From Mrakia gelida (Eukaryota; Basidiomycota; Tremellomycetes; Cystofilobasidiales; Mrakiaceae), in contig BRON01000016.1 of the NCBI GenBank assembly GCA_024345305.1, positions 248,001 through 312,000 on the forward strand: DNA of 64,000 nucleotides, given 5' to 3'. The stretch's first letter is position 1. Every line of letters starts with the position of its first letter. This document shows positions 8,289-60,963 of this stretch, piece by piece. The notes under the pieces were generated by a model. That model searched no databases. It was not told the DNA's origin and saw nothing but the letters and a program-made list of their open reading frames with translations. Position numbers and translations under genes: made by a program.

Positions 8289-9633
8289 TCACCAGATCGG
8301 TTCCCAGCAGGTCTTCTTGTAGATCTTCCAGTGCAGCTTTTGATGAGCTGGTAAGAGGAGCGGATATATATCAGCTGGAAGTACTCTTGTACGAGTGAAA
8401 AAGAAGAGGGGCCGTACCGACTGAGCAGTAGCGAACCGTCTTGCACTGAACGTACGAAAAGCGAAGAAGTCAGCAACGCGCGACGTCGACGCGAGAGAGA
8501 ATCGGAAGGAAGCTGCACTCACTCGACCACACGCCATCATCTCGTCCCCAGCCTTAACCCTCCCACAAGGTCCAGCTCCCATCTCCGCACCCTTCGCCTC
8601 GCACCTCCACCAGGGACTCGACTCCACCAACATCTGGAGCATCGACGACGGGCAGCTCCCCACCAAGAGTCCTGCCAGCTGTGCGGCGTAGCTCAGAATT
8701 TCGTCTATATCCTCCCGAGATCGTCCGCGAAGGTTCGATTTAGCAGTCTTGAGTTCGGAGTTGAGCTTGGAGAGCCGCTGAAGGAGAAGGAGGGAAGCCG
8801 GAGAAGTGTTGGGACGGGGAGGACGGACGCCTGAACTTTGGCTGACGGCGAAGACGGCGAGGAATCCTAGGATACTGCGAGTCGTATAGAATGCTTCGTA
8901 TCCTCTGGTCATCATTTTGTTCGGATGAGGTGTCTGCGATGGGGTTTGAAGAGAAGACGGAGCGAAGAACGAGAAGGGGTCAGCGACGTCAAGCGAGGAT
9001 CATCACGACAAGGTCCGTCAGCAAACGAGGCTGGACGCACCTGATCCAAGAGATCTGCGGCTGAAGGAAAGCGCATCGTGTAGAGGAGCGTGAAAGACTC
9101 CAGGAGAGCCTTTCCCTTGACGGGATCCCTCGCGTAACGGTCGAAGTAAGGGTTGACCATTCCCCCGAGACCGACGAGAACGCTCGCCCATGGGTTCTTC
9201 CAGGCGTTGGCTGATGCGATCGCATGGGCCTTCAGAAGGTCGGGGAGGTATCGATGGGCGAACTCGGCCTTCAGGATCCAAAGGAAAGCGAGATGGAAGG
9301 CGCGTCGACGAGCTCGAGAAGGGAAGGATGGAAGGCGAAGCTCACGAGAAGACGACCATCGTCCAGGGCGTCACTTCCCAGAGCAGAGACCTATAGGATG
9401 GGACATAAGTCAGTCAGTGACCGCGAGGTGCTCTCCAAGAGAAGAGGAGAAAGGGAACGAACGATTCGCTGCATCTTAATCCTTTCATCGAACGCTTCGA
9501 CGAGGACGCCTTCCGGCACGACGACTCCAGGAAGACGAGTTAGCTCGAGGTCTTCGCGTATCCTGTGCTCGTATGTGCCGTCAATGAGTCCTAGGCAGGT
9601 GGCCATTTCTTCGAGGGTAACATCGTCGTCCAT
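8289..9633 (-). CDS. MYND-type zinc-finger protein, paralog 1
   Basis: The start at 9633 (MDDDVTLEEM) and the stop at 8289 (CWEPIW end) are clear. The C-terminal part carries WWRCEAKG, MMACGR|C, then VRYCS and AHQKLHW...C, a MYND zinc-binding module split over three exons. The middle exon, 8418..8445, is 28 nt long. A helical N-terminal region, including FLWILKAEF and NPYFDRYARD, precedes it. MYND fingers usually bind Pro-rich peptides and recruit partners in the nucleus; no target is known here. Between about 9240 and 9400 the exon junction is unresolved: two competing reading frames are plausible and I could not join them in phase. Four paralogs lie elsewhere in the window on the same strand. 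Confidence 0.75.
8418..8445 (-). other. 28-nt microexon coding the MYND core (paralog 1)
   Basis: The exon runs from TGC after a CAG acceptor to a final G before a GTACGG donor, and reads CKTVRYCSV plus one base. It joins in phase to ACGR upstream and AHQ downstream. The other four MYND paralogs have an exon of identical length at the same place. Confidence 0.8.
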
Positions 9634-9948
9634 CGGGTAGAGAGGAGAAGGGAGAGGGAGGAGGAGGAAGGAGTTGGGAGGGAGGAACGTTGAGCTCGAC
9701 GTACGAGCGTTCGCTGATCCTGGGCCCGCCTTGAATTATTTTTTTATGACACGAACTGGTTTAGAGCGAAAAAGAGGCTCAGGCTATCTGGTCGAAAAAG
9801 TTTGAAGATTTTTGTCCGAAATTTCAGAGCCTGGAGGCGAGAAAGAGGACGCATCTTTTCGTCGACCTCAACCACGACAAGCTCTTCCCTTCCTTCCTCC
9901 CTTTCCTTCCCTCGACCTCAAGATTCGGAAGGAGGTCTTCCCCTACAG

Positions 9949-11311
9949 CTTTTCGACGCTCGGCATAGAATCACGGAACAGCTCATCCAGTTCGCGTCGA
10001 AGCTGAGCTCAAACTTGCACTCGACCTCGTGAGCCCTCCTTCCTTCCCTGCTCCCCTTCCTTCTTCTCCTTCCACCTCTTCATCTCACCTATCGAGCGCC
10101 CGTTCGATGGGTTCTTTCTCGTAGCAATGATGAGACCGTAATTTGTATTCACACGCTTACCTCGTTCAGGCTACTACTTCGCAAGAGGGAAGACCTGTCC
10201 GAGGAGATGAGGTCAAACTTTTCATTCTTAGCGCCTTCCTCCCTGCCCCCTTCCTTCTCCTTCGTGACTGCTAGAGCTTTCCCATCACCTCTTCCGAGCT
10301 TGGACCGATGACCGTGATGCTGACTTTGTTTTTCTGGTTCCTGTTCGTCGTTTTCGAAGGAAGGAGGAGCATTTTGCGAGCTCGAGAACGAGATCGCCTC
10401 GAGCCCGTCGACCGTCGGTTCTCTTCCAGACCCACCCAAGCTCGCTTCGTGGTAGGACCTCACCTTTGGGTATCCGCGAGAACGGGAAAGGGTGTCGAGG
10501 AGGGCTTAATTCAGGAGCTGCTCTCGGTCAGTCCCTCTGCATCGGAGGTCTGTCGAGCTCTCCTCCCTCCCTCCCCCTCACCTTCGCCTTCATTCCCCCA
10601 CGTCTCTCTCTACGTCTGCTTCCGGCTCGTCCCTATCCCCCTCTATCTCTCTCGACATCTAGTATCGTTCTCGAACACTTCGTCTCCTTTGATCAGCTCT
10701 TCAACTGTCGTCGTCTCTTCCCAGAACGACGTCGCGCGAAGGGTTCGACCTCGAGGTTTCGTCGTCGTCGAGATCGGTCCTACATGTCCCGACGAATTGA
10801 GGAGCATGTTCTTACTTTGTTTATCCCTTCTCGGCTCCTCCTCGCGTCTTACGACTCTCGTTATCTACTTCTTCGTTCGTCGTTTCACGATCTCCTCGCT
10901 TGCTCTTCTGTTCTCCTCTTCCTCGTCTCTCATGCTCGCTACTCTATCTATCTCGACCCGTCAGACTAGCCACGATACTGTCTCAACATCGTGTAACACT
11001 GCTGTCTCTACCCGAACCCTCCGCGGCTGGCGTTGGAACGCTGTTGCACTGTTTGAGAGAAGACGTGCCCGGCACGAACGGGCGACCTGAGACATTCCTG
11101 GCCCTTCCTCTTCGCCTTCCCCTATCTCCCCTATCTTGTATTTCTCTCCTTCTCTCGTATCTTGTTGTCTTCTCCCTCTCCTTCGAGCTTGCACCCCCAG
11201 AACAGCGTTCGTGCGAGAGACGCTCAGCTTGCTGAGATTGCTCGGCACGAGACCTTCAAAAGAACGACTCCTGCAGGTTTTCAAAGGTTGTCGAGGAGGC
11301 CAAGGGTCTGA
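9949..11311 (+). CDS. Possible multi-exon gene, function not recognised (exon islands only)
   Basis: Exon 9949..10028 follows a CTACAG acceptor and reads ARHRITEQLIQFASKLSSNL; it joins in phase to 10170..10211, reading LLLRKREDLSEEM, with normal donor and acceptor signals. This looks like a genuine helical or coiled-coil protein. Near the end, a long pyrimidine tract and CAG at 11200 precede VRARDAQLAEIARHETF, in frame to a TGA at 11309..11311. The exons between 10212 and 11200 and the start codon could not be determined, so it is unproven that these islands belong to one gene. No family was recognised. Confidence 0.35.
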
Positions 11312-12857
11312 TTACGTGCTTCATGGGAAACCTCGGAAGCGAAGAAGGGCGAGCGAGAATCGTCGACGCGTCTTCCAACTTTCCTCTTCTCCTCGTTCCC
11401 GACTTTCGTTTCCCAGCCACCTTTTCTTCCGGATCGGAGAGCTTGTATGAATCTGTATCGCATCGTGGGGAGCTGCACCTCAAGGCGGGCTGTCCGAAGC
11501 AGAGCTGGATTGCGTCCCTTGTCAAGCTTCCCAGGCTCCCGTTCCCGAGCTTCTTCTCTCGACTTCGCCTGAGATTCGCTTTCGAGCTCCAACTCCCCCA
11601 AAGGAGGCTTGCTCAACCTTGATAGAGCAGGAACAAATTAACAAACGAGGCTCCAACGCTTTCAGAATATAGCAGAGGAGCAGGACGAGCTGGAAGAGGG
11701 AAGGAGGAGGCGAGCTCGTAAATGACTTCGACGCGTCGAGCGTACTCGATCACCAAATAACTTTGCTTCGAGTCTGGCTCTTTTCTTGCACACATATGAA
11801 GGGTGACTCGGTCCCATGAAACGAGTCGAGGGAGCTTTTCAAGCCTCCTGTGGTCTGTGAAAAGCTGAGGATTTCTTATCCGGCTCCCAAAGAACAAAGA
11901 GAAGAGCCCAGCCCTCGAGAAGGGACCGAGACGTGCGGCGGACTCATCCCCATGATTTCGATGGACTCCCGAGCTTCCTTCTTCGCCTCCCAGCCTCCTT
12001 TTTTTTTGCGTTGTTCGGAAGGTTCTCATGGATCTCATCAGAGTTTTCCTCCGCTTTGAGTGAAGAAGACAAGCGAGAACTCGCGTCTCTCGACGACTCG
12101 ACGAGCCCCCTCCTCGTTCGTCCTCGTCTGCGTGCCCACCGGCGTCGCGTTCGAGCTTGAGTGCTTTCCTGTTTTCAAAACGTCTGATTGCGCGGAAGCG
12201 TCGGCCACGGAACTAAATTTGTCGAAGACAGCCGGCCGCAGGCTTGGGTGAGTGGAGCAAGGGAAGGTCAAACTCGCCTCGCTCGCTGGAATCAGGTGAA
12301 TCGAGCCCAAGGCTCTCCTCGATCTCCCAAACTCAGCTTCTGCTTCAGGAATCCTTCCAACCTCCATCCCTCCTCTTCCTCTTCTCGGTTCGTGTACTAT
12401 TATACCCACCAACCTTCCCCTTCTGTGAGTATCATTCCCTACCGAAGCTGTTCGAACGGCGGGACGCGTGGGATCAGAAGTCTTAGGCTGGAATTCGAGC
12501 TCGAACTGACCTTCGACCCCCCCTTCTCTCCCTCATTCATTTCCCTCCCGCTCGTTCCTGATCCTCTCTCATTCTGCACCATGTGTAGCCTGAACTCCAA
12601 CTCGCTCATCACTCGATCTATCTTGGACTGGACTCAAGACTACGAACGAGTCAGGCCTCCCTTCCTTTAATCGAATCGAACGAAGGCCTGCTTTCAACCT
12701 ACCACCCACCACCAACTCTCTTCTCTCGACACCTCCCTCCTTACCTTCGGTCCAACTCACTCTATTCAAGACTTAACTCGCCCTCGACTTTAACTTCCTT
12801 TCCCCTACCAACCTTCAATCTCTTCGCTTTCGACCCAAAACCAACTCGAACTCTCGA

Positions 12858-12875
12858 CCCCCCCCCCCCCCCCCC
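12858..12875 (+). repeat. Poly(C) run, 18 nt
   Basis: Eighteen consecutive C within the CT-rich leader, 66 bases before the kinase start codon. Such runs are length-unstable and hard to sequence; no function can be inferred. Confidence 0.95.
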
Positions 12876-12941
12876 TCCTCCTCGGCTCCCCTCCCCAACC
12901 TTAGCCCCTCCCACCTTCCTCCTCCCCTTCCTCCTCCAAAA

Positions 12942-15074
12942 ATGCCCTCCTCCAATTTCACTGCTTCGTGCTCGGACCTCATCGGAAACAGAATCGATGG
13001 TGGACGACTCGTCCTCGAGTCTATCCTGGGAGTAGGAGCGTACGGAGTCGTCTATCGAGCGAGGGATGTCACGAGGTCGATGCCCACGTACTACGGTGAG
13101 CCTTTTCTGCCTTCTCTGCCCTTCCAAAATTGCTCTCTCTCGATCTCTGACTCGTATCTGACCTTCCTTCTTCTTCTCCAGCCGTTAAATGCCTACCGAA
13201 CGTCGGTCTCGACACTCGTCAACGACACTTCCAACGACGCGAACTCTCCCTCCATCGACTCGCCTCCTCCCACCCCTCCATCGTCTCCCTTCATCGAATC
13301 ATCGAGACTCCCACCATCGTCTATGTCATCCTCGAGTTCCTCCCCGACGGAGACCTCTTCGGAATGATCACCGAGTCGCAGCGGTATATTGGAAACGACG
13401 CTCTCATCAGCAAGGTGAGACCAACCGCCTCTCGCTTCTCTTCTCGAACGTCTTCTCTCTTACTGACCGCTGTCTTCTCGTTATCGCTCGTCGCTGCAGG
13501 TCTTCCTCCAGATCCTCGACGGAGTGGAGCACTGTCACGAGCTGGGGATCTTCCATCGAGACCTCAAGCCGGAGAACATCTTGTGCGCGAGAGGAGGAGA
13601 GAGGTTGATGATCGCAGACTTTGGTCTCGCTACTTCGGAGAAGCAGAGCACGGACTTCGGATGTGGTTCTACCTTTTACATGTCTCCAGGTACGTCTCAA
13701 CCTTCCTCGTAATCTCGCAGAAGTACCAGCAGCAGCTGCGAGTGACGCGTCTTTTCGCTCGACTATTCCCGTTCTGACCTCTTTCTCTCTGTCTTGCCTT
13801 CACTCAGAGACCCAAGGTGGCATCTACGCTCGACCTGCTTCGTACTCGACTGCTCAAAACGACATCTGGTCCCTCGGAGTGATCCTCGTCAACCTGACTT
13901 GCGGACGAAACCCGTTCGTCGATTTCCCGTCGCGTCCGTCTTCGTCGTCGTCGCTCTCGCCGCTGACCTTTCCTCCCACCCTTTACTTTTCCAGATGGCG
14001 TCAAGCTACCACCTCCGACGAGACCTTCCGAGCCTTCCTCGCCGACCCCGACTTCCTTCGATCCATCCTCCCCGTCTCTCTCCAAACCAACCACATCCTT
14101 CGCTCGATTTTCGAACTCGACCCGAGTCGACGGATCGGGATCCAGCACCTCAGGGAGTTGGTCAAGGGAGTGAGGAACTGGAAGATGGATGAGGACGAGT
14201 TGATGAGTGCTACAGATGCGGCGAGGAAGGCTGCAGAGTCGAGTGGTTGTCCTGCGGCGTACAGGGTCAAGGAGAGACTTCGAGCGGTCGAGGAGGAGCG
14301 AAGGTCAGTTTCATTCCTCTTCTCTTTTCTCTTGCTCGCGCTTCATTCTTGGGCTGACTCTTTCCTCTTCTTCGCGCACTCAGACGTCGTCAACTCGCTG
14401 CTCAGGCCCTTCTTCTGTCGCAGGCCTCGCACTCTCCCTCCATCCCTCCTCCCTCGCTCCTCAACTCTCCTCTTCCTCGACCTCAATCCCTCCTCTCCTC
14501 CCCCTCCAACTCCTTCTCGGAACCTACCTCTTCGATGGCCGGAATCCACATCCTCTCTTCATCGCACGGAACTGGGTCGACCTACGCCGACGACGAGAAC
14601 GCGTCGCTGGATCATCACCTCATCTCCCCCTACCCTCTCGCCAACTCCCACTTCTTCTCCTCCGGTTCCAACCAGTTCATCCTCGCCTCCGCTCAACCCT
14701 CACAGACCTCCTCTCACCGAACCTCCTGCCACCCAATCAACCTCAACGAGCCCAAGTCGATCTCGCCCTTCTTCAAGGACACGAAGCACCTCTCCCCGTC
14801 CTCGTCGTGCGGCGACTCCTCCTCCGCTGGTCCCTCGCTCCCTCCTACTCCCGAGTTCCCAGCGACCGACAAAAAGGGATCGGCAGCCTCGTCGCGTCGA
14901 GGTTCGGGGGAGGACGAGCTCCTCACTCTTCCTACTCTCGACGGTCGAGCAGGGAGTCGAGAGCAGGGAGAGGCTCGGTTCGCGTCGGAGAAGATCGAGG
15001 AGCTTCTACGAATGGAGGAGAGCGAGAGGCGACGTGGACACGAGCATCCTCCTTCGTACGCTTCTGCTGCTTGA
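12942..15074 (+). CDS. Serine/threonine protein kinase, Ran1/Sks1/Ksp1 type
   Basis: Six exons close in frame (12942..13095, 13182..13414, 13500..13689, 13808..13913, 13995..14303, 14384..15074), about 560 residues. All kinase landmarks are present: the glycine loop GVGAYGVV, the lysine in AVKCL, the catalytic loop [11 protein letters not shown] in [17 protein letters not shown] and the terminal Arg in DPSRRI. CGRNPWRQA and the FQRREL block point to the fungal Ran1/Sks1/Ksp1 group, which links nutrient state to meiosis, filamentation or TOR signalling. After the catalytic domain (to about residue 340) comes a disordered Ser/Pro-rich tail of some 220 residues. The ATG at 12942 follows a CT-rich leader. 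One donor (13914) is GTTCGT. Confidence 0.9.
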
Positions 15075-19131: not shown

Positions 19132-19160
19132 GCGTCAGAGCTGTTCCGGGTTGGGGTGGT

Positions 19161-26400: not shown

Positions 26401-27864
26401 CTACCAATCGGGCTTGACGCAGTGATGTTTGTGCGTCGGCCAATGATCCAACTGGTGAGCTAGAAAAACGAGAAAAATAGATGAGGCGAAAGAGCGTCAG
26501 CTTGTGATTCCACGTCGAGAGCGAGGCTGAGCGACGCGTTGGAGGAAACGGAAGAGAGCTGCTGACCTGGGCCACAATAGCAGGCCGTTCGGCACTGGAT
26601 GAGGAGTAGGCACACAGCGGAATTATAAGTGTCTCGGTCAGACTCGATCGACAAGGAGAAAGAGAGATCAAGAGAAGAAAGCGAAACGAACTCACTCTCG
26701 CGCACGTCATGTTCTTGCCGTCTCTCTCCGTGCATAGCTCCGACGCCGGCGATCCAGAGCATGTCCCCCAAGCATGGAGATGGTACAACTCCTTCTCCTC
26801 GTCTGGACCCAGCCTCAAGAAAATCGCGAGCTGGGTGAGCAGCTCGCGAAGTCCTAGATCCCCTTCGTCCCAACACGACCACCGTCGCTCCGGCGACGCC
26901 TCGAAGTGAGCATCGCAGTCCTTGATGACGGTTTCGAGAGCGAGCTTAAGGGACCTCGCCTCGCTGCTCAGAGTTGCTGGACCGTCGGGGATGGGCGCTC
27001 CGGGTACAGGAGCCGTCTCGTTGAAGGTAGTTGGGGAGAAGAAGTGAGCCGTGAGGGCGGTGACCTCCGTCTTGAACCCCCAGAGTTGAAGGGAGAAGTT
27101 CGGGTCAGACCCATCGAGCTGTGCAAAGAAAGCGAAGAAAAGTGGGCGTGCGGTCTTGAGCGAGGAGAGGAGGAGGAACGACGGCGAAGAAACACGCACG
27201 ATGCTGATCACTCTCGCGCTGAAAGGGAACCTCCGCGCCTGCCATCCTCTCATGAAAGCGATTACGGCGTCTGAGGAGTCCTGAGGATGTCTCCTGGCGA
27301 ACTCGCTGAAGATAGGAAGGATGATGATCTGCTGGAAAGCTGGGAGCCAGAAGTCGATTTGTTCGTGACCTTCCCAGATCTCCTCGTTCGAGCACCTCGT
27401 GTAGGCTCGAGCGAGTCGAGGGAGGTACAGGGCGCCGAAACGGTTCTGGTTGGTTCGAACGAATGCAGAGCACCTGAATCAGCTGGTGAAAGCGAGAGCG
27501 TTCCAAGAGCAGAGAAGAGACGAACCCAGAAGACCGTCTCCGGGTTGGTCCTGTCGAAGACTGGGAGAGTCTTGACACGCCTGACCTGAAGGGACGAGCA
27601 ATGTTAGGGTCAGAGATACAGCCTCGCGCTGCTTTGGAGCCTATAGCAGCTGTATGGACTCACAAGCTCGACCATCTTTGTGGTCCTCTCCCTGACACGA
27701 ACCAGCCGTCTCGCTGAGCGCTCGTCTCCCCTCATCGCCACTTCGAGCTCGTAGACCGTTTCATTGAAGACTAGGTCTGATAGGAGGGCTTTGAATGAGT
27801 CGTCCTTCACCGCTAGGGAGTCTGCTAGCTCGTCGATGAGGGCGGCGTGAGGATAGGGAGCCAT
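26401..27864 (-). CDS. MYND-type zinc-finger protein, paralog 2
   Basis: The start at 27864 (MAPYPHAALIDELADSL) and the stop at 26401 (CVKPDW end) are clear. Exon 1 is 27864..27664. Middle exons read KTLPVFDRTNPETVFW, FGALYLPRLARAYTRC, QIDFWLPAFQQIIILPIF and PNFSLQLWGFKT, a helical region with W/F-rich helices. The C-terminus has MTCAR|C, ACYCGP and AHQLDHWPTHKHHC, a MYND module with two flanking introns and a 28-nt middle exon (26567..26594). The junction around 27480-27520 does not close in phase with the best-looking frames; one coding frame change there is unexplained. It is divergent from the RING-H2 gene with only 187 bp between start codons. Function unknown beyond likely protein binding. 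Confidence 0.78.
26567..26594 (-). other. 28-nt microexon coding the MYND core (paralog 2)
   Basis: Begins TGC after CCAG and ends CCAG before GTCAGC; reads CRTACYCGP plus one base. It joins in phase to TCAR upstream and AHQ downstream. Confidence 0.8.
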
Positions 27865-29780: not shown

Positions 29781-29800
29781 GAGAGAGAGAGAGAGAGAGA
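29781..29800 (+). repeat. (GA)10 microsatellite
   Basis: Ten uninterrupted GA units in the intergenic region between the RING-H2 gene and the OSBP gene, which converge here. Confidence 0.9.
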
Positions 29801-33488: not shown

Positions 33489-34836
33489 TCAGTCCCACGA
33501 ATGCTTGACGCAGGATGGTTTGTGCCGTTTCCATTCTTCTCGTTGGTGCCCTGCGAAGGAAAAGGAAGGGTCAAAAGGAAGAAGATCAGCGAACGCGACG
33601 AACGAGCGAAGTCGGCCAAAGACGAACCCCGAGAGCAGTATCGGACGGTGAGGCACTGTAAGGAAGGAAGAGGGAGATAGTCAGTTTCGAACCGTCGAAC
33701 GCTAGCTGAGGAGAGACACTCACACCCGAGCAAGCCATCATTTCGCTTCCCGACGGCAGCTCCTCGCACGACTTGCTGGCTTCACCTCGTCCTCCCTCGC
33801 ACCTCAACCAGGGTCGATGTGTACGAATGGCATCCAGCACTGAAACCACCGGCTGAAGCTCAGGTAGGGTCTGAAACTCCGGTCCTCCCAGCAACACCAT
33901 CAAGAGGGAGAGGCGCATCTCGTCCGTCTTTAGCGTGCGGAGCAAGTGGTTCGGGGTATTCCTCGGGTTCTCGACGATCCTCTGGATGAGTAGAGCTGTG
34001 CTGTTGAAACAATCTGCTAGAGTTGCTTCTTGGATCCCATCCGGCGGAGACGAGGATGATGTCCAGGGGAAGGGTGCGCTGGGAAGACCGGTGAGGAAGA
34101 GGTCGAAGAGGAAACATTCGACGAGGTTGAAGAGTCTCGACCAACGGACGGCAAAGTCGTTCGCCTGTTGGAAAGCAAGCGAGGTCCGAGATCAGAGGGC
34201 GAAGAGCAAACTCAAGTGAGAGGAAAAAAGGACGTACGGCTCGAAACGACGTTTCGGAGGGAGGGTTCGATGCGAGACTCTCGACGAGGCGGAAAACCAA
34301 TGCTGGGGCTTCCTCGCTCGTTCGGATGTAGGCGGAAAGAAGAGGTGTGTCCGAGTCGATCTTGAAGAGGAGGTCGGACCATACGCTGATAGCAGTGAGG
34401 TGGGCGGGGAGGAGAAGGATCGCTCGAGCGAGGCGAGGGAAGCAGACTGAGACGAAGGCGGTCTGAGGGGAACAGAGCAGCAGGCATCAGCTCAGACCTT
34501 CTGAAGGTGAAGAAAACATGGCTCACCTGCATCTCCTCGTGAAAGAGACCGGTTTGGTGATTCGTAGGGGTGTCTGTCTGCAGGGAATTGAGAATGGAGT
34601 CGATGAGCACGACGAAGGAGGGGGGGACGAGTCGTCGAGAAGAACCAGAGGGAGAAAGAGGCACGCACCAAGGATACATACTGATCCAGGCGACGGCACA
34701 CGTCTTCAAGGTCTGGTGGAGCTCTAGCACCTTCCTCCATGGCGTGATATTTGACGAGAAGTGGGGCGAGGTCGATGTAGGAGTCGTCGAGAAGTCCGAG
34801 GAGGGCAGCGACTTCCTCCGCCGTTTCAGAGGCCAT
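33489..34836 (-). CDS. MYND-type zinc-finger protein, paralog 3
   Basis: Start at 34836 (MASETAEEVAALLGLLDDSY), stop TGA at 33489 after CVKHSWD. The finger is WLRCEGG, SCEELPSGSEMMACSG|C, VRYCSRG, HQREEWKRHKPSC, a good match to the YC-x3-[CH]-Q-x3-W-x3-H-x3-C half of MYND domains. It is interrupted by two introns around a 28-nt exon (33628..33655); the downstream intron starts GTTCGTC. Upstream exons code helical sequence including ESLASNPPSETSF, NDFAVRWSRLFNLVECF and VENPRNTPNHLLRTL. The segment MMAC is shared with paralog 1, which suggests these two are closest. No catalytic domain such as SET is visible. Confidence 0.8.
33628..33655 (-). other. 28-nt microexon coding the MYND core (paralog 3)
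   Basis: Begins TGC after TACAG and ends CGGG before GTTCGTC; reads CLTVRYCSR plus one base. It joins in phase to ACSG upstream and GHQ downstream. Confidence 0.82.
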
Positions 34837-37803: not shown

Positions 37804-38960
37804 TCAATTCCCTCCTCGAATCCTCGCCCTCTCCTCCTGCCCTCGTTCCCTCCTGCTCCGATAATGCTCCTGCTCCATCCTCGCATTACGAGCAGCTTCC
37901 ATCGGAGTTATTGGACTCGAGGGCGACATATAAAGCGGAGGTTGGACCTGTCCCGTCGCGGCTGCACGAAAATTTCTCTCCCTCTCCATCCCAAGCAGCT
38001 CCAGCTCGTTCCGCCTGTCTTCCTCCTTCTGAGCTCGAACAGGGTCGATCTCCCTCGACCGAATCCAATGTCTGCACTCCTCCATCTCGTACTCGTCGTC
38101 ACGTTCGTCTTGTTCCTCGCCGAGCAGACGAGCTTCGAGGAGGGAGTTGGTGTAGCCGATGGGGTCGCGGTCGTACGCGCGCCAGATGGCGGCGGGACTG
38201 GAGAAGGAGTGGGAAGGGAAAGAAAAGGAAAGGAAAGGACCGAAGTCAGTTTGTGAGTCGGGAGAAGAAGGAAGGGAAGGGAAAGAACGAACCTGATCTC
38301 GAGGATCTCAGACGTGTCAACGAGCTCGCCTTCGTTCTCCGGTCTCTCCCTCTCTACGCCGAACCAGGCCGTGATCTGGGCCTTGGTCAATCCGGTCGAG
38401 TGCATGAGCAGAATTGTGTCGTGTGCGTTTGGAGCTGAGTGGGGGACGAGACACCGTTCAACGAGATGAGTTTCGAAACGGGAGCGAGGGGAGAGAAGGC
38501 GAACGAAGGTCTCACCAGGATTCCTCTCGAACACTTCCGAAAGAAGTCGAAGCTGCTCGGGAGTCTTCCTCTGGTTTGATGGTCGACCCTGCTTGGCTTT
38601 GAGGCGTCGAGAGAGGTACCTGCGGGTCAAAGGAAGGGGAGCAAGGAGTGAAGGATAAGCTCGCGATCAAGGGCGCCAAAGGAAGGTCGAGCAGCTCTCC
38701 TCCCTTCCAACAGCTCCAAGGCTGCTACAACATCTCCTCGCGAAGCTCAGGGGCCAGACTAGGCATCGGGCACTTACTTTCCAAGCTCCTGAGAAGTCAC
38801 CTCCGGACCTGCTCTCGACATCTCATACGCCCACCCCAGCTGCATCCGCTTTACGAGCACACTCGTCGTCTCCGTACGCTGCCTCGTGTTCTCCGAGAAG
38901 TCCTGCGAGGATTTGGGATTGTAAGAGAGTAATCCTGTGAAGAAAGGGGTCCTGAGACAT
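37804..38960 (-). CDS. Homeodomain-like protein A, with one-base frame break in exon 1
   Basis: Four exons (38960..38778, 38619..38516, 38434..38293, 38197..37804), about 273 residues if one base near 38861 is skipped. The homeodomain-like core spans exons 2-3: RKTPEQLRLLSEVFERNP, PNAHDTILLMHSTGLT, KAQITAWFGVERER. Helix 3 keeps the W-F pair, but position 51, normally Asn, is Val. The C-terminal half is charged and helical (YEMEECRHWIRSREIDP). It is paralogous to gene B on the other strand: shared motifs GPEVT.QELG and QRKTPEQ, and three identical intron positions. Exon 1 length (183) only fits the phase of exon 2 with the one-base correction, so this allele may be broken or the base may be an error. 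A nuclear DNA-binding role is inferred. Confidence 0.7.
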
Positions 38961-39452
38961 GTCGAAGAAGGTTGGAAGGAGGAGGCGGGATGGAGGGTCG
39001 AAGGGAGGAGGGGAGGGAGGGCGAGTTGAGCTCGTGCGTCCGAGGAAAGATCGATTTGACGAGGGCTGAAGTGAGCTGGCGAGATGGGAGCAGGGGAAGA
39101 TTAGACGGGACGAAGGTGTTACGGGATGGTGGCCTGAGAATCCGAGAAATGTGGTGCTGGCGGTCGTAGGGAGGAGAGGAGAGCCCTCGGAGAGCGAAGG
39201 GGTCGATTTCAACTCGGCCCTCGCCCTTCCGTCTTCCTTGAAGCCGTCACCATCGATTTTTCCCCTCTTTCTCATATCCTCCCGTTCTCTCCTCATCAAA
39301 CACTCCCCCTCGAGCTCGTCAAAACTTCCTAGAATCAGTCCAGAAGGCCTCCCCGTCCCTCGCTCCTCCTCCTTCAAGAGTCGAGCTCACCTCTCCCTCC
39401 CTCCTTATCTCGATATCCCTTCCTCCCCCTTCCCTGCCTTCTTCAGCCTCAA
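38961..39452. promoter_or_regulatory. Shared upstream region of the divergent homeodomain-like pair
   Basis: A 492-bp segment between the two start codons that must serve both genes. One side is purine-rich, the other pyrimidine-rich on the plus strand, giving mirror-image CT-rich leaders. No known binding motif was assigned. Confidence 0.55.
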
Positions 39453-40543
39453 ATGCCTCGCGCTACCTTTCTGGACCGTCTCCTTCCTGCTCAGCTCGAA
39501 CTTCTCGAACTCAAGATCCAGCAACACGAACGAATATTCCTGCAAGGTCGACCAGATCCGATGCAGAACCGGATGCTGGCGATTGGGATGTCCTCCCTTG
39601 GACCAGAAGTCACGCCTCAGGAGCTCGGAAGGTGAGATATACCTCCCGTCGCTCGAGCCTACAGCATGCTGCTCGCTTGAAGGAGGAGAGCTCTGTAGCT
39701 CCGGTATGAAACGAAACTGATCCCTCGACGTCGTGGGTTTCTGCCCTTCCTCCCTCCAGATTCCTCGCTCGACGCGTCAAGCAGCTCGAGGGGAAACCTA
39801 CTCAGCAGAGGAAGACCCCTGAGCAGGTAGTTCTTCTCCAAGAATCTTTCGACCACGGACCTCGTTCGTTCTTTCTCCCTCTCTCCCTCTCCTCCTCGCG
39901 GTGTGCTTGCGGTGAAGTCCGACCTGACGCACCTCTTTCTTTGCCTCGCCTCGCCTTGCCTTCCCCCAGTCCCCAACGCCCACGACGTCATCCTGTTAAT
40001 TGAGTCTACTGGTCTCTCTCGCGAACAGATCAACGCTTGGTTTGATCACAAGCGAACGAACCTGCCGTTCTTGGAGGATTCTTCCGAGCAGCTTGAGTTC
40101 GTCGCCTTTCTCTTTCTCTCTCTCTCTCTCTCGACCTTCGCTCTCAACTCACTCACCTCTCTTTTCTCCTCAAATTCTTCAGGGAAACCCCATCCCAAAT
40201 CTTGGGCGCGTTCAAGAAGGATCCCGAAGCCTACACGGCCTCCATCCACGAACGACGTCGACTCGCTCGCGAGCAGGGCGAACGCGACTTCCTCGTCTAC
40301 CAGGAGGATGCTCGTCGCCTAGCTCGGCTGAGGGAAACCGATCCTGCACAAGCAGCGGAGGAGGAAGCGAGGGACGCTGAGCTGAGTAGGGAGAAGTACA
40401 GGGAGTGGCAGAGGGAGAAGGCAGAGAAGGAGGCGGAGATAGAGGAGAGGAGGAGAGGGATGACACCGCTGGAGAGGCAGTACGACGAGATGAGGGTTAG
40501 GGTGGCGAATGGGTTTAGAGGGAGAAGAACGTATGTTGAGTGA
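39453..40543 (+). CDS. Homeodomain-like protein B
   Basis: Four exons close in frame (39453..39631, 39760..39863, 39970..40096, 40183..40543), 256 residues. The N-terminus MPRATFLDRLLPAQLELLE leads to GPEVTPQELGRFLARR, then the homeodomain-like fold QRKTPEQVVLLQESF, PNAHDVILLIESTGLS, REQINAWFDHKR. Position 51 is His, not Asn, so DNA contact must differ from a classic homeodomain. After it comes a long charged helical tail (EARDAELSREKYREWQREK). Exon 2 is 104 nt in both A and B, and the second intron splits the helix 1-helix 2 loop in both. Two donors are GTTCGT. The divergent layout recalls fungal HD1/HD2 mating loci, but A and B are clear paralogs of each other, and no pheromone or receptor gene is present. 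Confidence 0.78.
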
Positions 40544-43235: not shown

Positions 43236-44710
43236 TCAAGCGTTGTCCCAAACGATCTTCTGGCAGAAGTGCTTGTGTTGCCCGTGATCCCAGTCTGATT
43301 TGGCGTGTTCTGCGAGTTCGATTCGACCGAAAGGAACAGAGAAAACAGAGTGAGCGAGCGAGACGAGAGCGAGGAGGGGAAACGCGTCGCTGAAGGCTCA
43401 CCGACGCAGCAGTACAGCCTGACGCGACACTGAAGAGCGAAGAACGAGAGGCGAAAGGCGGTCAGAGCTCGAGTCAGAGACGTAGAGGAGGACGAGGCAC
43501 TCACCTTTGAGCAGGCCTTCAACTTCTTCGGATTTCTCTCCTCGCACTTCAACCCGGACGACCCACAGACCAAGAAATCGGACCCAGCAGGAGGCCACTC
43601 GGGACCAAGGAGTCTAGGTTCCTCGACTCGTATATCTCGACCTCTCATCGGCATCAAGAACGCGAGGTAGTTCACGAGGAGTAACCCAGGCCAATGGAAA
43701 GACCTCTCGGGATCGTTTCGTCGAATGACTTCAAGGAGAGGTTGGATGAGGGACTCGAACGATCCGGCGACTGATCGAAGTTCAGGAGGGAAGGTAGGGT
43801 TCTTCTGGGCCGATTTTGAGAGAGTAGAGGTAGCGTAGGCGACGATGCAGGTGTGAACGACGAGGAGATGAGGGCAGAGATGGAGATAGCACGCGTCGAC
43901 GTCGAGTTTCTGTACGGACGGGAAAGGATTAGCTCGAGCTCGAGATTATCGAGAGGTAGGGGGCTAACAACATACGAGAGTAGTAGCCTGTGGAGTCTTC
44001 CTGTAGTAGACGTCTCGAAGCTGGATCGCCTTGTTCGGATGAGCTCGAAGGTAGTATGAGAGGAGCGCGGTGTCTCCAGCTCCTCGAAGGATCAGATCGT
44101 AGGGAGAGTCGAAGATGGAGGGAGAGGGTTCGTCGATGACTGCTGAGACGAGGAAAGGGAGGTATTTGGTGCAGAAGCAGTACTGAAAATGGAGAAGAAG
44201 GTCAGAGGGAGGAAAGAGAGAGGAAGGGGTAACGAGGACTCGAGCTCACCGTGTACGTATTTCCCGCCCTCCTTCCGTCCGACCACTCGAGAATAGACCA
44301 GACCTGCGAGCGTAGATATCATCTTTGTGAGCCTATGTAGGCCTCGGGGGAGCTTTGGAGGACGAGAGACTCACAAGCTTGCAGAGCTGACTTCTGTTCT
44401 GCTCCATCGTTCTCCAGACCTCCTTCCATCCTCCTTCCCTGTCGAGACCGAGAGCTGCAGCAAGAGGACTCATGTGCGAGAGCTGAGGCCTTACCCAGGC
44501 TGGCCTGTCTCCTGAGATGCTCATGGGACCTGTAGAGTAGTGGATGGTAGGTTTGTCCATGTCTCGTTCCATGATCTTGATCGCGGCGTCGACGACAGCA
44601 GGATCGTTCTTCGTGTCCTTCTTGAGAGCTTTGAGGATCGCTTCGTTCATCCTTCTCTCTCCAGCATGGTCGGCAGGGATGACATTCTCGTACAAGGGAG
44701 AAGTGGACAT
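43236..44710 (-). CDS. MYND-type zinc-finger protein, paralog 4
   Basis: Start at 44710 (MSTSPLYENVIPADHAGERR), stop at 43236 (KIVWDNA end). The N-terminal exon is long and helical, with AVVDAAIKIMERDMDKP and ALGLDREGGWKEVWRTM. Middle exons include FLVSAVIDEPSPSIFDSPYD and LLSYYLRTNKAIQLRDV. The finger reads LVCGSSGLKCEERNPKKLKA CSK|C, then RLYCCV, EHAKSDWDHGQHKHFC. Two introns flank a 28-nt exon (43402..43429). The His-Gln of the other copies is His-Ala here, but Trp, His and final Cys remain. It starts only 122 bp from the eIF2B beta gene on the other strand, so the two probably share a promoter region. Confidence 0.78.
43402..43429 (-). other. 28-nt microexon coding the MYND core (paralog 4)
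   Basis: Begins TGT after TTCAG and ends GTCG before GTGAGC; reads CRVRLYCCV plus one base. It joins in phase to ACSK upstream and EHA downstream. Confidence 0.82.
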
Positions 44711-51753: not shown

Positions 51754-52142
51754 CGTGAGGAGGGGAGGGCGGGGGGTGGGGGGTGGAAGAGGAGAGTCAG
51801 AGCAGGCGCGTCCTCGAAAGTCAAAGTGGGTCGAAGAGAGAGGGACGGTCGCTAAGGAGGGAAGGGGAGGAAAGTGCTCAGCAACAGTCGCATCGAGTTC
51901 AACGGGACTGAACGAATACTATTCAGCCACCTAAAACTTGAGAACGAGAAAGGTGGATGTCTTGTCCTCGACTTCTCTTTCCCTTCCCTTCACCGAGGTG
52001 TGTTCGAGCGAACGAAATCGACGCGTCGACGCTCGAGGCCTCTCCTTCACGTTCTTCCTCTCCTTCCTTCCTCGCTCGCTCACTCTCGTCCCATAGGTAG
52101 ACTCCAAAGAGAGCTTTGTATCCATTTCAAGATCTAAACAAA

Positions 52143-55100: not shown

Positions 55101-55302
55101 TTCTTTGGTTGCGATCGCTCGTCGAGAAGACGAAGACGAAGCGAACGACGACGTCGAAGCTGGGAGGGAGATCGGAAAAACGAGGAACGACGAAAGCGAG
55201 AGAAGGTGGTCAGCTTGGGGGTTTGTTCGCTCGAGAGGAGGTAGAGGAGGGGAGAGGGTATAGAGGCTCACCCTTGAGAGAAGTCCTCCTTATTGAAAGC
55301 AT
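52143..55302 (-). CDS. Unrecognised protein with mitochondrial-type N-terminus
   Basis: Exon 1 (ATG at 55302) codes MLSIRRTSLKG, a basic, Ser-rich start; exon 2 begins ASTSSFASSSSSRRAIATK and contains FVYYTEEGGRRPKPFYPTG. The last exon is a very long open frame that begins PKARQARRPDQPKP at about 54549 and runs to the stop at 52143. These features suggest mitochondrial import. The body is helical and charged (e.g. EESVKLVEEMIKNVVK, AEAERKIALHLKEL) with Arg/Lys-rich connectors, and the C-terminus is strongly acidic. In length (about 870 residues) and style it resembles fungal mitochondrial gene-expression factors, but I recognise no domain and do not assign a function. Confidence 0.72.
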
Positions 55303-55613
55303 CGTTTGGAGGAGAAGGGAGGGAAGGGAGGGAGGGACGAGGTGAACGGCGGAAGGTGAACGACGCTCTTTTTGAAGGGGAGTCTCGCTCGGTTGGACGA
55401 CCTTGCGAGTAAGGAGAGATGGGTAGGGAGGGAGAGGGCGGGGGTGCTGTCCTCTACGAAGTCGCTTCTGAGGAGATGGTCGAGGTTAAGGAATCGCTAA
55501 CAGCTCTCAAAGAGAAGGGAAAAGAAACGAAGTTCGAGCTCCGCGACCTTCCTCTTTCCTCCCTTTGCCCCTCCCTCCCTCCTCTTCAACTTCAACACCC
55601 ATCCACTTCAAAC

Positions 55614-56419
55614 ATGCTTTCCTCCAACCTCCTCCGATCCACTCCCCGAGTCGCTCTCCGAGCTGTGAGTAACACCATCTCATCTTCACCCTTCTTACTT
55701 GAGAGGAGAGTGGCAGAGACGAGAAAGGGAAACGAACGACTCATCTCCTCCCCTCCTTCCCTTCTTGCCTCTCGTTTCCTCACTCAGCCCGTCATGTCCG
55801 TCCGACACACCTCCGGATCAGCCGGATCCGTCACCTCTAGCAAGATGTTCCAGTCAGTATCCCTTCCATTCACTCGCTCCTCCACCCAGAGTCTTCGAAT
55901 GAGTGAGGCACATGCGAGAGGAAGAGAAGCAGAGATGGAGGAAGGAAGACACGGGATGTTCCGGCCCCCTTCCCCTTTTGCTGCTACAAGATTTCTGACC
56001 TTGGGTGACTCTTTGTGCGGAACAGGGCTCGAGAGAAGGGCCAGGAGGACTGGTTCATCCGTCAGGCTGAGAAGGAGAAGCTGTTGGCTCTCAAGTCCAA
56101 AGCTCAGGCTGAGATCGCTTCCAAGCAGCTCGAGATCGTGAGTCCCTTCCCTTCCGCCTCGCTTTACCTATACTTCTCCCTCGGCCGCTTCGTCATCTCC
56201 CTACACACCGCATACACCCCTTGCTCCCATCTTCATCCGACCTCCCTATCTCCCACCGTTCTTCAGCCGAACGAAACCCGAGCTGACCCCTCCCTCCTTC
56301 CCTCCTCTCCCCTCCCTTACCTCTTCGCTTCGCTTCCAAACCAGGACGAGATCGACCGACAGCACAAGGCCCTCGGAGACGACCTCCAGAACTCTGAGCC
56401 TCCTGCTCCCAAGCAGTAG
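55614..56419 (+). CDS. Mitochondrial F1-ATPase inhibitor (IF1/INH1 type)
   Basis: Four exons close in frame (55614..55664, 55788..55852, 56026..56137, 56345..56419), 100 residues. The N-terminal part, MLSSNLLRSTPRVALRA, is a mitochondrial presequence. The inhibitory helix reads AREKGQEDWFIRQAEKEKL, the family signature that binds between alpha and beta subunits of F1 when ATP synthase runs backwards. A predicted coiled coil follows (LKSKAQAEIASKQLEIDEI). Length and organisation are normal for yeast Inh1. Confidence 0.9.
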
Positions 56420-57273
56420 ATTCTCTTCCCCCGCCAACCCACATCTCCTGCAACCAATCCAACGACCAGACCACGCTACGAAATCCGTCCGAGAACGGAG
56501 TGAACATAACAGAACATGGGTAGAGAAGGGCTTTCTTTTGATTCGATGAGGACTTGACTGTGCTTGTCGGCTGTCTGGGAGAGGAGAGAGAGCTGGGGTG
56601 GGTTTGGGTTGGGAGTGGGTTGGAAGGAGGGAAAGGGAGAGGAGTGAGGAGGACGTCGTCGTCGTTGTCTTGAAGGAGGAACAGCTCGGGTGTGAGAGGA
56701 GCGCAGAGGGCACGCGTCTCTGGGTCCGCTGAGGAGGGCGGACTGAGGACAGAGAGCTTTGGTGACCTCGAAGACTGGCTTGGAGGTGTTCAACGCGAGC
56801 GAATCACGACCAGTCGGGAGGGAGGAAACGGAGTGCGAGCTCGACGTCGCTCTTGCCTCCCTTTCTCTGCTTTCAGGAAACCAACGCAAAGCTCAGCAAG
56901 TCATCCTCTCCCTTGCCTACCTCGTCTTCTCGAGCACATCTCGCTCTCACCACCAGACTCGCGTGCGAGAATGAGAAAACGAAAGGCAACGAGAACAGAC
57001 CGAACCAAACATCCCCCTCCTCGCTTCTCTCTTCCTCCCTCTCACCTGCCTCCTTCCCTTTCCTGAACAACCTCTTTTTCTTCTCCCCCCTCTCCTCTTC
57101 TTCCAATCAGCTCGAAAAATCGAAAAGAGAAGCTCCCTTCACCGCCGTCGTCAAGGCCAACCCTGCCTCGCCACTTTCCCACTCTCGCTTTCGACGCGTT
57201 CCTCCTTCCACCGTCCATCGTCCATCTTCCCCCTCCTCCTCCTTCTCCCTTCTCCCCTTCCTTCTTTCAAGCT
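56420..57273. other. Intergenic region
   Basis: About 850 bases between two genes on the same strand. The part from 57000 to 57270 is CT-rich and likely the ASF1 leader. No separate gene seen. Confidence 0.45.
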
Positions 57274-59084
57274 ATGTCTGTGAGTCCCCCTCTCCCCACT
57301 TTGTCCAACTCGTAAACAGCCCTAACGAGCTCCCTTCTTCGTTCTCGTTGCAGATCGTCAACATCCGAAACATCGAACGTGAGCTTCCCACTCCCTCCCT
57401 CCTTCCCCTTCCCTTCTCCCTTCCCCTTGCTGTGTTTCTTGGGGGAGAATGTATAGACAGATGGCTGACGCGCTTTACGCTGCTTTGGTTTAGTTGTCAA
57501 CAACCCTGCGAAGTACACTGATCCTTATGTTCTGAGGATCCAGTTTGAGTGTATCGCTCCTTTGAAGGAAGGTCAGTTCAATGTGGCTCGCTCGTGGGTT
57601 GGGGCGGCGACGACTGGGTCGAGAGATAGCAGAAGGGGACAGAGAGGGAACTAGGGGAGTGGGGACGAGGCTGGGGTGGTGGGATAGCGAGAGCAGAGGA
57701 GTGGGTCGGGAGGCTGAGAGGGAACAGAGGGGAAGGGAGCGAGGCGAGGCGAGGGAAGGGAGGGGAGGTGGGACAGCTCGAGTGCTCGTTTCCTCGAGCT
57801 TGGGAGCCTTCCAAAGTCTTTCGAGACTCTTGCCATCGAGCTCTTCACCTCGATAGTAGGCGGTCAGCTCTCGAAAAGCTGGGATGCACCCGTGGAGGGA
57901 CAGGAAGCGGGAGGGAAGGGATCGCGAGCTCATCTCATTTTCCTTTGTCCTTCCTTTCGAGCTCGTGAAAGCGTCGAGCTGACTTGTGCTTCGCGATTGG
58001 AACAGACCTCGAATGGAAGCTCATCTACGTTGGATCAGGAGAGAGTGAAAAGTTCGATCAGGAGTTGGATTCCTGCATGGTCAGTGGCTCTCTCGCTCTC
58101 TCTTTCTTTCGAGCTTTGGGAAGGAGATCGAGGTCGCGTCTCTCACCTTTCTTTCTTCTTTCGCTCGCCTTCGTTCGGACTGACCCTCCTCCTTCTTCTC
58201 TCTTCTCCCTCTTCCTCGTATCTTCCACTTCTCACCTTCGTCGCCAACAACAGGTCGGACCCATCCCCGTAGGCCTCAACTCCTTTGAGTTCTCCGCCTC
58301 CCCTCCCACGCTCTCCCTCCTCCCTTCTCCCTCGACCCCAGCAGACCTCATCGGAGTGACCGTCATCATCCTCTCTGCCTCCTACAACGATGCCGAGTTT
58401 GTCAGGGTTGGATACTACGTCGCTACCAACTGGGAGTCGGAGGAGTACGCTGCTGAGGTGGAGGAGGGAAGGAAGGACGGAGACATGGAGCATCTGGTGA
58501 GGAACGTGAAGGTCGATACGCCTAGGGTTACGAGGTTCAGTAACAAGTGGTGAGTCCTTTCGCGCGAGAGTCTGGTTTGGTGGTGAGAGGGTCTGGGAGG
58601 AGGAGGCGGAGGGACGGGTCGACGAGAAGACGAACGAACGAACGAACGACCAAGCTCACCACCTTCCCTCCCCCCCTATCTCTCTCCCACCTCTAGGGAC
58701 GCCCCCGAAACCACCACCACCCCCTCCGGAACCACCCTCCCCACCTCTCCTTCCTCTACCCTCCTCTCCGCTCCCCTCCCCATCCCAACCAACTCCGCCC
58801 CTCTCCCTCCTCGAGACCCAACCCAATCAGCCCTCCCAGCTCCTATCACCGCTCTCCCTGCTCCCGCGCCCGCGCCTGCTACCCCTTCGCCTCTCCCTAC
58901 CGCCACCACTTCGACGGAGGGAGAGAAGACCGAGACGGACGAAAACACCAACGCTCACCCTCTTGCCAGTCAGGCGGAGGACGAGGATAAGATGGGGAAA
59001 GAGGTGATGGGAGATGAGGGGAGGGGAGAGGAGGGTGGAGAGGGGCTGAGTAATGCTGGCGGAGCGGCCATGGGGGAGATGTAG
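57274..59084 (+). CDS. ASF1: Histone chaperone ASF1
   Basis: Six exons close in frame (57274..57279, 57354..57378, 57494..57571, 58006..58079, 58254..58549, 58697..59084), 288 residues. The Ig-like core is unmistakable: MSIVNIRNIELVNNPAKYTD, FECIAPLKEDLEWKLIYVGS, FDQELDSCMVGPIPVGLNSF, GVTVIILSASYNDAEFVRVG and YYVATNW. ASF1 delivers H3-H4 to chromatin during replication and repair. The core carries an extra Ser/Pro-rich insert near residue 77 and a disordered, acidic C-terminal tail of about 120 residues, as in fungal ASF1. The first coding exon is only two codons. Intron 3 is 434 nt, far above the local norm, and holds an antisense protein-like frame. Confidence 0.93.
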
Positions 59085-59671
59085 AGTGGGAAACTGAGGG
59101 AATGGGAAAGAGGAAGCGTGGTGGGTTGGGTTGAGTGTCTGTGCTGAGTACTTATGGTTTATGGTTATGTTCTCGTGGCTCGCGTGCGTCCGAAAGGTGT
59201 AGCGAGGCCTATCGCAAATCTGACAACTCGATGGTAAGAGGAGGAGGCTGTCTTTTGAATCAGGATGAAAGGAAAGAAGTTGGCGGGTTCGACGCGTCTC
59301 GTCTCGTCCTTTTCGTTCATCACCTCCCTTCTCGCCGCCAGCGTCTTGCATCGTTCTCGAGTTTCCGGTGGTCAACAGCAAGACAATCATCCCTCTCCCC
59401 TTAAGCATTCTCCAAAGACTCTCCGAATAATCTCGTATTAGATCTCGTTCTCTCCCTCGCCGCTGCCCCCGCAACCGCTCTTCGAGCCGTCTCCCTCTCG
59501 CTCCCAAGTCAACGCGTCTCGATCCTCTTCCCTCGCTCTGTCTTCAAAGTCGGACGATGCTGAAACAATAAAAGAGGGAGGTATCGTTTCAGTCTCAGGT
59601 CGTCGAGACGAGCCGGGGAGAGGCGAAGGAAAGAGACCAACCGAACGACGCGTCGCGATCTCGTCCTCGGA
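59085..59671. other. Convergent intergenic region
   Basis: About 590 bases between the ASF1 stop and the stop of MYND paralog 5. GACGCGTC copies at 59291 and 59647. No gene seen. Confidence 0.5.
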
Positions 59672-60963
59672 TCAGACCCAAGTAGGTGAGAAGCACTTCG
59701 ATCTATGGCTCTTCCGATTTAATTTTTGGTGGTCTATAAAACAACGGATTCCGTCAGTCTCCGAGCTCGAGCTCCGGGGAGAGAGGCGCTAGTGAGGTTG
59801 GGGGTGAAGTGGAAAGGGAAACTCGACGCACCTCTGCAGCAGTATCGAACCGAATAGCACTGCAAATGAGTGACATATGTCAGCCGCCATTGAGGAGAAG
59901 GCGATAGAGTCAGACTCACCTTTCCACAAGCCGGCATCTCGGTTCCTTCGGGGTACTGAACGCAGACGACGTTCGGGTCGGACGCCTTGAGCTCACATCT
60001 CCACCACGCCTCGTTCCCATGCTCCTCCCGCATAACCCGCATCCACGAGGCGAAGGTAAAATCCGGGTTTCTCATCATGTTCAACAAGTCCATCATGTCG
60101 TCGAACTTGACGAGGAACTGAGCCAAGTCCTGGCTCGACATGGGCGTCGAGCAACCTCGGTGGGGAGCGAGCTGTCGAGCGAGCTCGGCGAACCTGGCTC
60201 GATGGAGGAGTGGGTAGGGTTCGGTCTGGAGGGAGGTACAGTGGTAGTAGATATCGCAGCTGCGAAAAGATCCCCGTGAGGGAGATGGCAGTGGCTCGAC
60301 GCAGGGCGGGTTCCATCTTGTTTGGCGCGCAAAAAGAAGATAACAGAGCCTGTGGGTCAGCAAGAAGATGACGTTCTAGAGTAGGTACGTAGGAAGTCTG
60401 ATCATCTCACCGTAGATTGCGACAGCTGGGATATCCTCTCGACCAGGACATGGTGAAACAGAACGACCTCCGAAGGACGTGCGCGAATGAATCGACCGAC
60501 GGGAGCGATGTCGTTGAGGCAGAGGAGTTCCATCACGCATCTCCCTACGAAGCTTTCATACTGGTAATGAGACTCGTTGAACCGGTTGTTGAAGTACGTG
60601 CGAAAGAGGGAGGGCAAGCAGAGAGAAGCGAACTCGGCCTAGCGAAGGGAGAGACGAGGTCAGCTCGACAGCTTCTTCCCCTTCGCTCTCGCTTCGACCA
60701 GTTTTGGGGATCGGGACGAACCCAGAAGGGGTACCGGAACTCTGGGGTAGAGCTCAGTACTGCAAAGGACTGTTTGAGACGAGGTATGGTTCAGGTGAGC
60801 AGGGTGCTGCGAAAACGAGAAGCAGAAGGCGAAGGGAGACAGTCGAGCTCACCATTTCGACGACGGGAGTGACTTCGTGAGAGGCAAGAGGTCTTCCCGC
60901 CTTGCCGTCGATTCCAATCGAGAGACCCACGAGTCTTCCGTACTCTGAAGGTGATGGACCCAT
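59672..60963 (-). CDS. MYND-type zinc-finger protein, paralog 5
   Basis: Start at 60963 (MGPSPSEYGRLVGLSIGIDG), stop TGA at 59672 (FSPTWV end). Exons code FRTYFNNRFNESHYQYESF, SEVVLFHHVLVERISQL, CDIYYHCTSLQTEPYPLLH and FLVKFDDMMDLLNMM. The finger is WWRCELKASDPNVVC, EMPACGK|C, VRYCCR, DHQKLNRKSHRSKC. Two introns flank a 28-nt exon (59832..59859); the downstream intron ends TATAG at about 59735. The Trp expected four residues before His is absent (LNRKSH), so this copy's second half is the most divergent, though the His and Cys ligands remain. Helical N-terminal parts resemble the other copies in style rather than identity. Confidence 0.78.
59832..59859 (-). other. 28-nt microexon coding the MYND core (paralog 5)
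   Basis: Begins TGC after TTGCAG and ends AGAG before GTGCGT; reads CYSVRYCCR plus one base. It joins in phase to ACGK upstream and DHQ downstream. Confidence 0.82.

Follow-up and report, generated by a model that had tools for sequence, protein, structure and literature searches.

What does it mean that five genes in one stretch of fungal DNA each carry an exon of exactly 28 nucleotides (nt) at the same place? The stretch (the window) comprises 64,000 nt of Mrakia gelida contig BRON01000016.1, here called C16. Its genes A to E each end in a MYND-like finger, the middle of which is encoded by the 28-nt exon (the microexon). A sequence-only reading had proposed either an old family expansion or a functional constraint on splicing. 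Our analysis suggests, with a probability of about 0.75, that the five genes are part of one very large family inheriting one ancestral exon layout. The best explanation is that this family is old and still active and that the microexon belongs to the inherited layout and is not a special splicing device.

Gene structure and family size

All five microexons lie where they had first been placed, each with CAG directly before it and GT directly after it, and full models of the five genes close in frame, with an ATG and a stop at the proposed gene ends (Table 1). The intron before the microexon (intron 1) is in phase 0 and the intron after it (intron 2) in phase 1 in all five. The C-terminal MYND-like finger was borne out as well: each gene scores above the Pfam zf-MYND cut-off of 22.7 bits (28.8-46.3 bits as fingers, 24.1-40.6 bits as full proteins), and no other Pfam family exceeds its own cut-off in these proteins. 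The HQ that was said to follow the last junction is present in four genes, gene D being the exception. The common layout extends beyond the microexon: a short exon of 45-60 nt (the second, or the third in D) is followed by one of 207-246 nt, and the next measures 405-441 nt, or is split into 156 + 210 nt in E. The hand models place one additional intron in D and one in E. For gene A an alternative model, in which a further 51 nt are spliced out of exon 4 in frame, is possible.

The 34.86-Mb genome was searched with the pattern YAG-TGY-N12-TAY-TGY-N7-GT. There were 254 matches (123 forward, 131 reverse), which rules out five isolated paralogues, and none in the reversed genome or the reversed window. 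A pattern one codon shorter (25 nt) gave no match genome-wide, and one a single base longer (29 nt) gave one, family-like, in which the extra G would break the frame. Three family-like matches to an F-for-Y variant were left uncounted because the reversed control gave more (four). Per-site statistics cover 252 of the 254 sites, the remaining two lying beyond C20:430190. None of the 252 microexons contains a stop. Although the pattern leaves these positions free, Val stands at position 4 in 226, Arg at position 5 in 182 and G directly before the donor in 233. The 28-nt length is thus common to further family members, and the proposed old expansion with one common gene structure is strongly supported, on a scale far larger than five genes.

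The matches might nevertheless be unrelated MYND genes or chance, as the pattern alone is no proof of splicing and canonical MYND fingers are present in the genome. We examined 81 sites for closure: 53 on C16 (5 of them in the window), 8 on C14 and 20 chosen at random over 14 other contigs. Under a loose rule, which asks for C-x-x ahead of a GT donor and for x-[H/C]-Q or the like past an AG, 75 of the 81 close, including 17 of the 20 random sites. Because this rule accepted an interrupted copy through a wrong acceptor (L047 minus 8917), a strict recount was made, in which no stop was allowed in the 20 codons before donor 1 and His, His/Tyr and Cys had to follow in order past the junction. By this rule 67 of the 81 close (46/53 on C16, 6/8 on C14 and 15/20 random). 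The six loose-rule failures, inspected by eye, comprise two in-frame closures in which ligand 6 is altered or absent, a truncated site, a site with a stop ahead of donor 1, a site that fails to close, and a site that can read HQ but then loses its frame. Eight more sites pass the loose rule and fail the strict one; among them are a truncation right after EHQ, an upstream stop, sites in which a single ligand has changed, a site with a long insertion and a copy that an insertion has cut in two. Outside the 81, one of four additional C14/C20 sites lacks GT at donor 1. Judged by these predicted junctions, the majority of sites are genuine fingers, with degenerate or variant ones in the minority. 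The intron and donor statistics, finger consensus, codon tallies outside the microexon and Cys-spacing counts given below exclude the six loose-rule failures.

One interrupted copy, located at L047 109-6393 (C16 ~212.8-219.1 kb) and 85-88% identical to the L043 gene, is split by a ~4.9-kb insertion, with a 5-bp overlap at the break and 212 nt at the insert end identical to L057 1823-2034. From these features the insert looks like a recent element of the long terminal repeat (LTR) type.

The N-terminal parts of the five window proteins had been described as strongly diverged, and BLAST among them does find strong similarity only in the last ~60 residues. An alignment of 14 family proteins shows short common motifs, namely LGLxDG close to the N-terminus, LPxLxRA where exon 3 begins, FxRFxRxHP and WWRCE. 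Automatic gene modelling, which covered the loci before L076, gave 13 of 58 models; three are window genes, two of them differing from our hand models, and 9 of the 10 non-window models entered the motif alignment.

Less survives of what had been said about the setting of the genes. All five are indeed on the minus strand, but this carries no weight as a signal, because C16 has copies on both strands (28 minus, 25 plus) and same-strand runs of seven or more, such as the one in which the window lies, arise in 32% of random draws. The statement that conserved single-copy genes separate the five was not confirmed: none of the 10 long open reading frames (ORFs) scanned exceeds a Pfam cut-off. The description of the family as lineage-specific fits searches of a protein collection, though it has been tested only weakly. 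The search with protein C found no homologue at an expectation value (E) of 1e-3 among 2628 candidates, and the 14-protein alignment found none at 0.01 among the 7997 candidates sharing most words; the fungal share of the collection is uncertain for both.

Table 1. Positions of the window genes, their 28-nt exons and the mating-type-related genes (window numbering unless a contig is given; aa, amino acids)
Feature	Position	Strand	Description
Gene A	8289..9633	-	313 aa, six-exon model, C-terminal variant MYND finger
28-nt exon of A	8418..8445	-	CKTVRYCSV + 1 nt; introns 8446-8522 (77 nt, phase 0), 8348-8417 (70 nt, phase 1)
Gene B	26401..27864	-	338 aa, six-exon model
28-nt exon of B	26567..26594	-	CRTACYCGP + 1 nt; introns 26595-26695 (101 nt), 26460-26566 (107 nt)
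Gene C	33489..34836	-	324 aa, six-exon model
28-nt exon of C	33628..33655	-	CLTVRYCSR + 1 nt; introns 33656-33723 (68 nt), 33551-33627 (77 nt)
Gene D	43236..44710	-	348 aa, seven-exon model, HA in place of HQ
28-nt exon of D	43402..43429	-	CRVRLYCCV + 1 nt; introns 43430-43504 (75 nt), 43310-43401 (92 nt)
Gene E	59672..60963	-	280 aa, seven-exon model
28-nt exon of E	59832..59859	-	CYSVRYCCR + 1 nt; introns 59860-59919 (60 nt), 59734-59831 (98 nt)
Two STE3 genes	L096 C16:464900-466200; L097 C16:503350-504700	same strand	38 kb apart, 74% DNA identity
Divergent homeodomain pair	37908-38666; ~39333-40543	-; +	between genes C and D

The variant MYND finger and its microexon

The consensus of 75 tails is W-x-C-E...C...M-x-A-C-x-R/C-x-x-V-R-Y-C-S-x/E-H-Q-x-x-D-W-K-x-H-K-x-x-C-F-x-P-x-W, with the junctions marked by slashes. 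The later ligands follow C3-x2-C4-x4-C5-x3-[C/H]-...-H-x3-C, and the downstream set is complete in the 67 sites that close strictly. In the 66 fingers that have two upstream Cys, the C1-C2 spacing ranges from 2 to 24 residues and equals 2 in only 2, while 35 of these fingers have a C2-C3 spacing of 11. Trp ends 50 of the 68 tails that could be measured. We class the finger as a variant, not as canonical, because its first knuckle departs from C-x2-C. It resembles zf-MYND (PF01753; SMYD3, DEAF1, ZMYND10/12, ETO/CBFA2T1) in its profile scores and in its Cys/His order, and the family profile detects the solved MYND fingers of SMYD3, DEAF1, ZMYND10/12, SMYD2 and ETO. It differs in having His at ligand 6, a C1-C2 spacing mostly other than 2, the terminal Trp and an extreme C-terminal position. 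The SET domain of SMYD proteins has no match in the five window proteins, nor was any other known domain found there. An N-terminal profile match to 8vd6 'CAP REPEAT' (whole-sequence E 6.3e-5) contains no stretch that passes alone and was given no weight. The fold predicted for exon 4, in a model without most of the finger, has a mean predicted local distance difference test score (pLDDT) of 47.6.

Other MYND genes were sought exon by exon with zf-MYND, which gave 28 hits among the 150 of 207 candidates scored. Ligand 6 is Cys in 25 of the 28, as is usual in zf-MYND; these are other MYND genes and have their introns elsewhere where visible. In the family ligand 6 is His in all 74 aligned tails. 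This difference, together with the near-empty pattern controls, makes it very improbable that the matches are unrelated or fortuitous, a reading that the pattern controls and site closure largely refute. Two of the 28 hits are family members that have lost intron 2 (L009, and L017, which has a stop), and no loss of intron 1 was seen among the 28. L023 has EHQ and is otherwise unlike the family. Some other fingers (L026-L028) use C-x3-YC, which shows that the finger spacing is not immovable among MYND fingers at large.

Does an exon of this length call for special recognition, as had been suggested? At the 75 loosely closed sites intron 1 measures 60-148 nt (median 77) and intron 2 64-144 nt (median 91). 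Intron definition is possible for short introns, and a 28-nt exon between them therefore needs no exon definition. The codons of the microexon are skewed, Val being GTT in 136 of 226 cases compared with 33/186 in family models and 38/163 in long window ORFs. However, the flanking exons are biased likewise (His CAC 42/43 in the last exon, Cys TGT 53/75 in exon 4), and we rejected the bias as proof of splicing signals. The skew is not specific to the microexon, yet it is incompletely explained. With both introns short, a length that follows from finger spacing and kept intron positions, and codon preferences also in neighbouring exons, a special splicing constraint is unsupported.

A related idea is that selection keeps the 28-nt exon for regulated splicing: 28 is not a multiple of 3, so that skipping would shift the frame and remove the finger, giving an on/off switch. 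Consistent with this, donor 2 is GTTCGT, GTCCGT or GTACGT in 39 of the 75 sites, types that occur in only 4 of 75 at intron 1, where GTGAGT is found in 56; merely two intron losses were found beside 254 sites; and there is the codon bias of the microexon. Against it, GTNCGT donors are present at other introns of the window genes too, and the codon bias reaches into the flanking exons. The predicted tails after skipping vary from 4 to at least 40 residues, with no obvious common motif among those inspected, and the constant length is explicable without a switch in which 250 genes use one exon. We consider such selection unlikely, and regulated skipping of the exon is unsupported. A very short frame-shifting exon does occur in another fungal gene, Xlr2 of Trichoderma, where it is described as a regulated switch (PMC11121469). 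In contrast with Xlr2, the predicted 28-nt exon of the present family is common to hundreds of paralogues.

Copying, conversion and decay

The copies are spread unevenly over the contigs (chi2 390 on 19 degrees of freedom, with the length of C15 approximated). Density is highest on C16 (42.6 per Mb), followed by C11 (23.7), C20 (19.0), C14 (17.2), C18 (12.7) and C5 (10.6), with others below 7; none of the 252 sites is on C1 or C21-C25, which together make up 4.1 Mb. The nearest neighbour of a copy by 33-mer is on the same contig in 39.6% of cases compared with 9.9% in 500 shuffles (maximum 16.3%), and in 41.2% compared with 8.8% when C16 is left out. Adjacent copies are a median of 38 kb apart, only 25 of 233 gaps being below 5 kb, and 120 of the 233 neighbours are on the same strand. 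Same-contig relatives at such wide spacing suggest that copying has been largely within chromosomes and not in simple tandem arrays.

Two copies on C20 that lie 18 kb from each other are identical for 816 bp, a run which takes in exons, introns and the microexon; permutations reach 105 at most, and identity elsewhere in the alignment is 73-88% per bin. This run is a gene-conversion tract. Other pairs also exceed permutations, which uneven exon/intron constraint can produce.

Two further arrangements were seen. On C3 the site pairs 1856369 + 1859103 and 1961320 + 1964084, ~105 kb apart, have matching spacing and identical or near-identical 33-mers, which suggests a segmental duplication. In L060 and L063 (C16:714491 and C16:834089) the outermost upstream stretch is 91-93% identical and the remainder 51-72%, a possible recombination mosaic on the evidence of this alignment.

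The ratio of non-synonymous to synonymous substitution rates (dN/dS), calculated for loci before L076, was finite in 12 of 16 close pairs. For the part of exon 4 upstream of the finger it lies between 0.38 and 1.02, and for the finger itself between 0.14 and 0.54; the upstream value is higher in 11 pairs and equal in one, and two pairs rest on 32 upstream codons. As far as these pairs go, the N-terminal part evolves faster than the finger, which is not proof of positive selection.

These values bear on whether most copies are passengers, that is, drifting duplicates which recombination or mobile elements have spread and among which few genes work. Such a view would account for the broken copies (a stop before donor 1, a frame break in the last exon, a truncated finger, a lost donor GT), for the copy split by an LTR-like insertion and for the one pair in which upstream dN/dS is ~1. 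However, the 252 microexons are free of stops, the fingers are under clear purifying selection and the strict finger is kept in 67/81. In addition, an all-against-all comparison of 40 loci, with the short flanks included, and the window found one LTR-like repeat, not one per copy. We regard the passenger view as improbable, although working genes must be fewer than 254, since not every site satisfies the strict rule and several of the failures appear degenerate.

Taken together, the data are best explained by one ancestral gene in which two introns inside the finger left a 28-nt exon. Hundreds of copies of this gene would have arisen and spread, preferentially within the same chromosome, and ectopic gene conversion would exchange sequence among at least some of them. 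The family's products would be proteins of ~270-350 aa in which a conserved C-terminal variant MYND finger follows an N-terminal part that evolves fast. The 28 nt would stay constant because intron positions are inherited and the spacing C-x4-YC-x2 is kept, and the two short introns, recognizable across the intron, would make special recognition unnecessary. Several points weigh against this explanation. All junctions are predicted; 14 of the 81 sites fail the strict rule; a clear conversion tract was found only once; the intron-loss count is a lower bound; the codon bias of the microexon fits inheritance only if synonymous sites are unsaturated; and the adaptor function discussed below is a tentative proposal.

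Chromosomal context and possible function

Both STE3 pheromone-receptor genes found in the genome lie on C16, at 465 and 503 kb. Two receptors in one assembly are unusual for a haploid and could reflect a homothallic, dikaryotic or duplicated state. The window itself holds two divergent homeodomain frames that are similar to each other, an arrangement like the homeodomain pair of basidiomycete mating-type loci; the plus-strand gene scores 24.1 bits with Homeobox_KN (cut-off 24) and the minus-strand gene 20.4 with Homeodomain (cut-off 22.9). In the genome-wide homeodomain search neither the window pair nor two other C16 hits, at 222 and 326 kb, attain the cut-off. Hits on C11, C14, C1 and C9 reach it, and a homeodomain alone is therefore no marker of C16. 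C16 is probably the mating-type chromosome. Family density on it is 5.9-fold the genome mean, and the receptor stretch (407-538 kb) contains no copy among the 252 sites; the link between density and mating-type context is an association only.

Near the homeodomain hit at C16:222554, L047 8822-9295 (C16:221.6-222.0 kb) is 74% similar to window 38925-39402, which lies upstream of the window's minus-strand homeodomain gene. The region is a possible second copy of the homeodomain locus.

Published counts of PF01753 are 7 in M. lychnidis-dioicae, 11 in S. roseus and 26 in R. glutinis; a further six basidiomycetes have 1-7, and the column 'Agaricomycetes (7)' gives 41 (PMC4469406). The count of 7 is given again in PMC7499883, and MYND genes in Rhodotorula strains average 24.7 (standard deviation 15.1) in PMC10662464. 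Variable copy number is thus known already for the MYND genes of Microbotryomycetes (PMC4469406, PMC10662464), with the family described here having ~ten times more copies. No account of such a MYND family was found in the full-text literature searched, a body that leaves most subscription papers outside. With its finger divided among three exons, a family of this kind may be under-counted by domain searches or poor gene models: only two of our 28 exon-by-exon hits belong to this one.

In its dispersed, chromosome-biased copies, its gene-conversion tract and its diverging N-terminus joined to a conserved module, the family resembles large birth-and-death families such as the F-box, receptor and NOD-like receptor (NLR) families. 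Unlike those repertoires, it showed no NACHT, NB-ARC, F-box or receptor domain when its five window proteins were scanned. Other MYND fingers bind short proline-rich peptides. By analogy with these, and from the variable/constant build, we tentatively propose that the proteins may be adaptors, in which the finger would dock on a common partner and the N-terminus would supply specificity; we hold this as a possibility rather than an expectation. A further proposal is that the family serves self/non-self recognition or mating compatibility in the fungus as a repertoire, or else consists of selfish meiotic elements and their antidotes. It would combine a diversifying N-terminal sensor with a constant docking finger, be renewed by within-chromosome duplication and gene conversion, and be densest on the mating-type chromosome beside the homeodomain locus. 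We think this unlikely.

The ~250 copies offer hundreds of natural replicates of one microexon for statistics of tiny-exon splicing and intron loss. The variable/constant build, the contig-specific relatives and the density on the probable mating-type chromosome make the family a candidate for an undescribed recognition repertoire.

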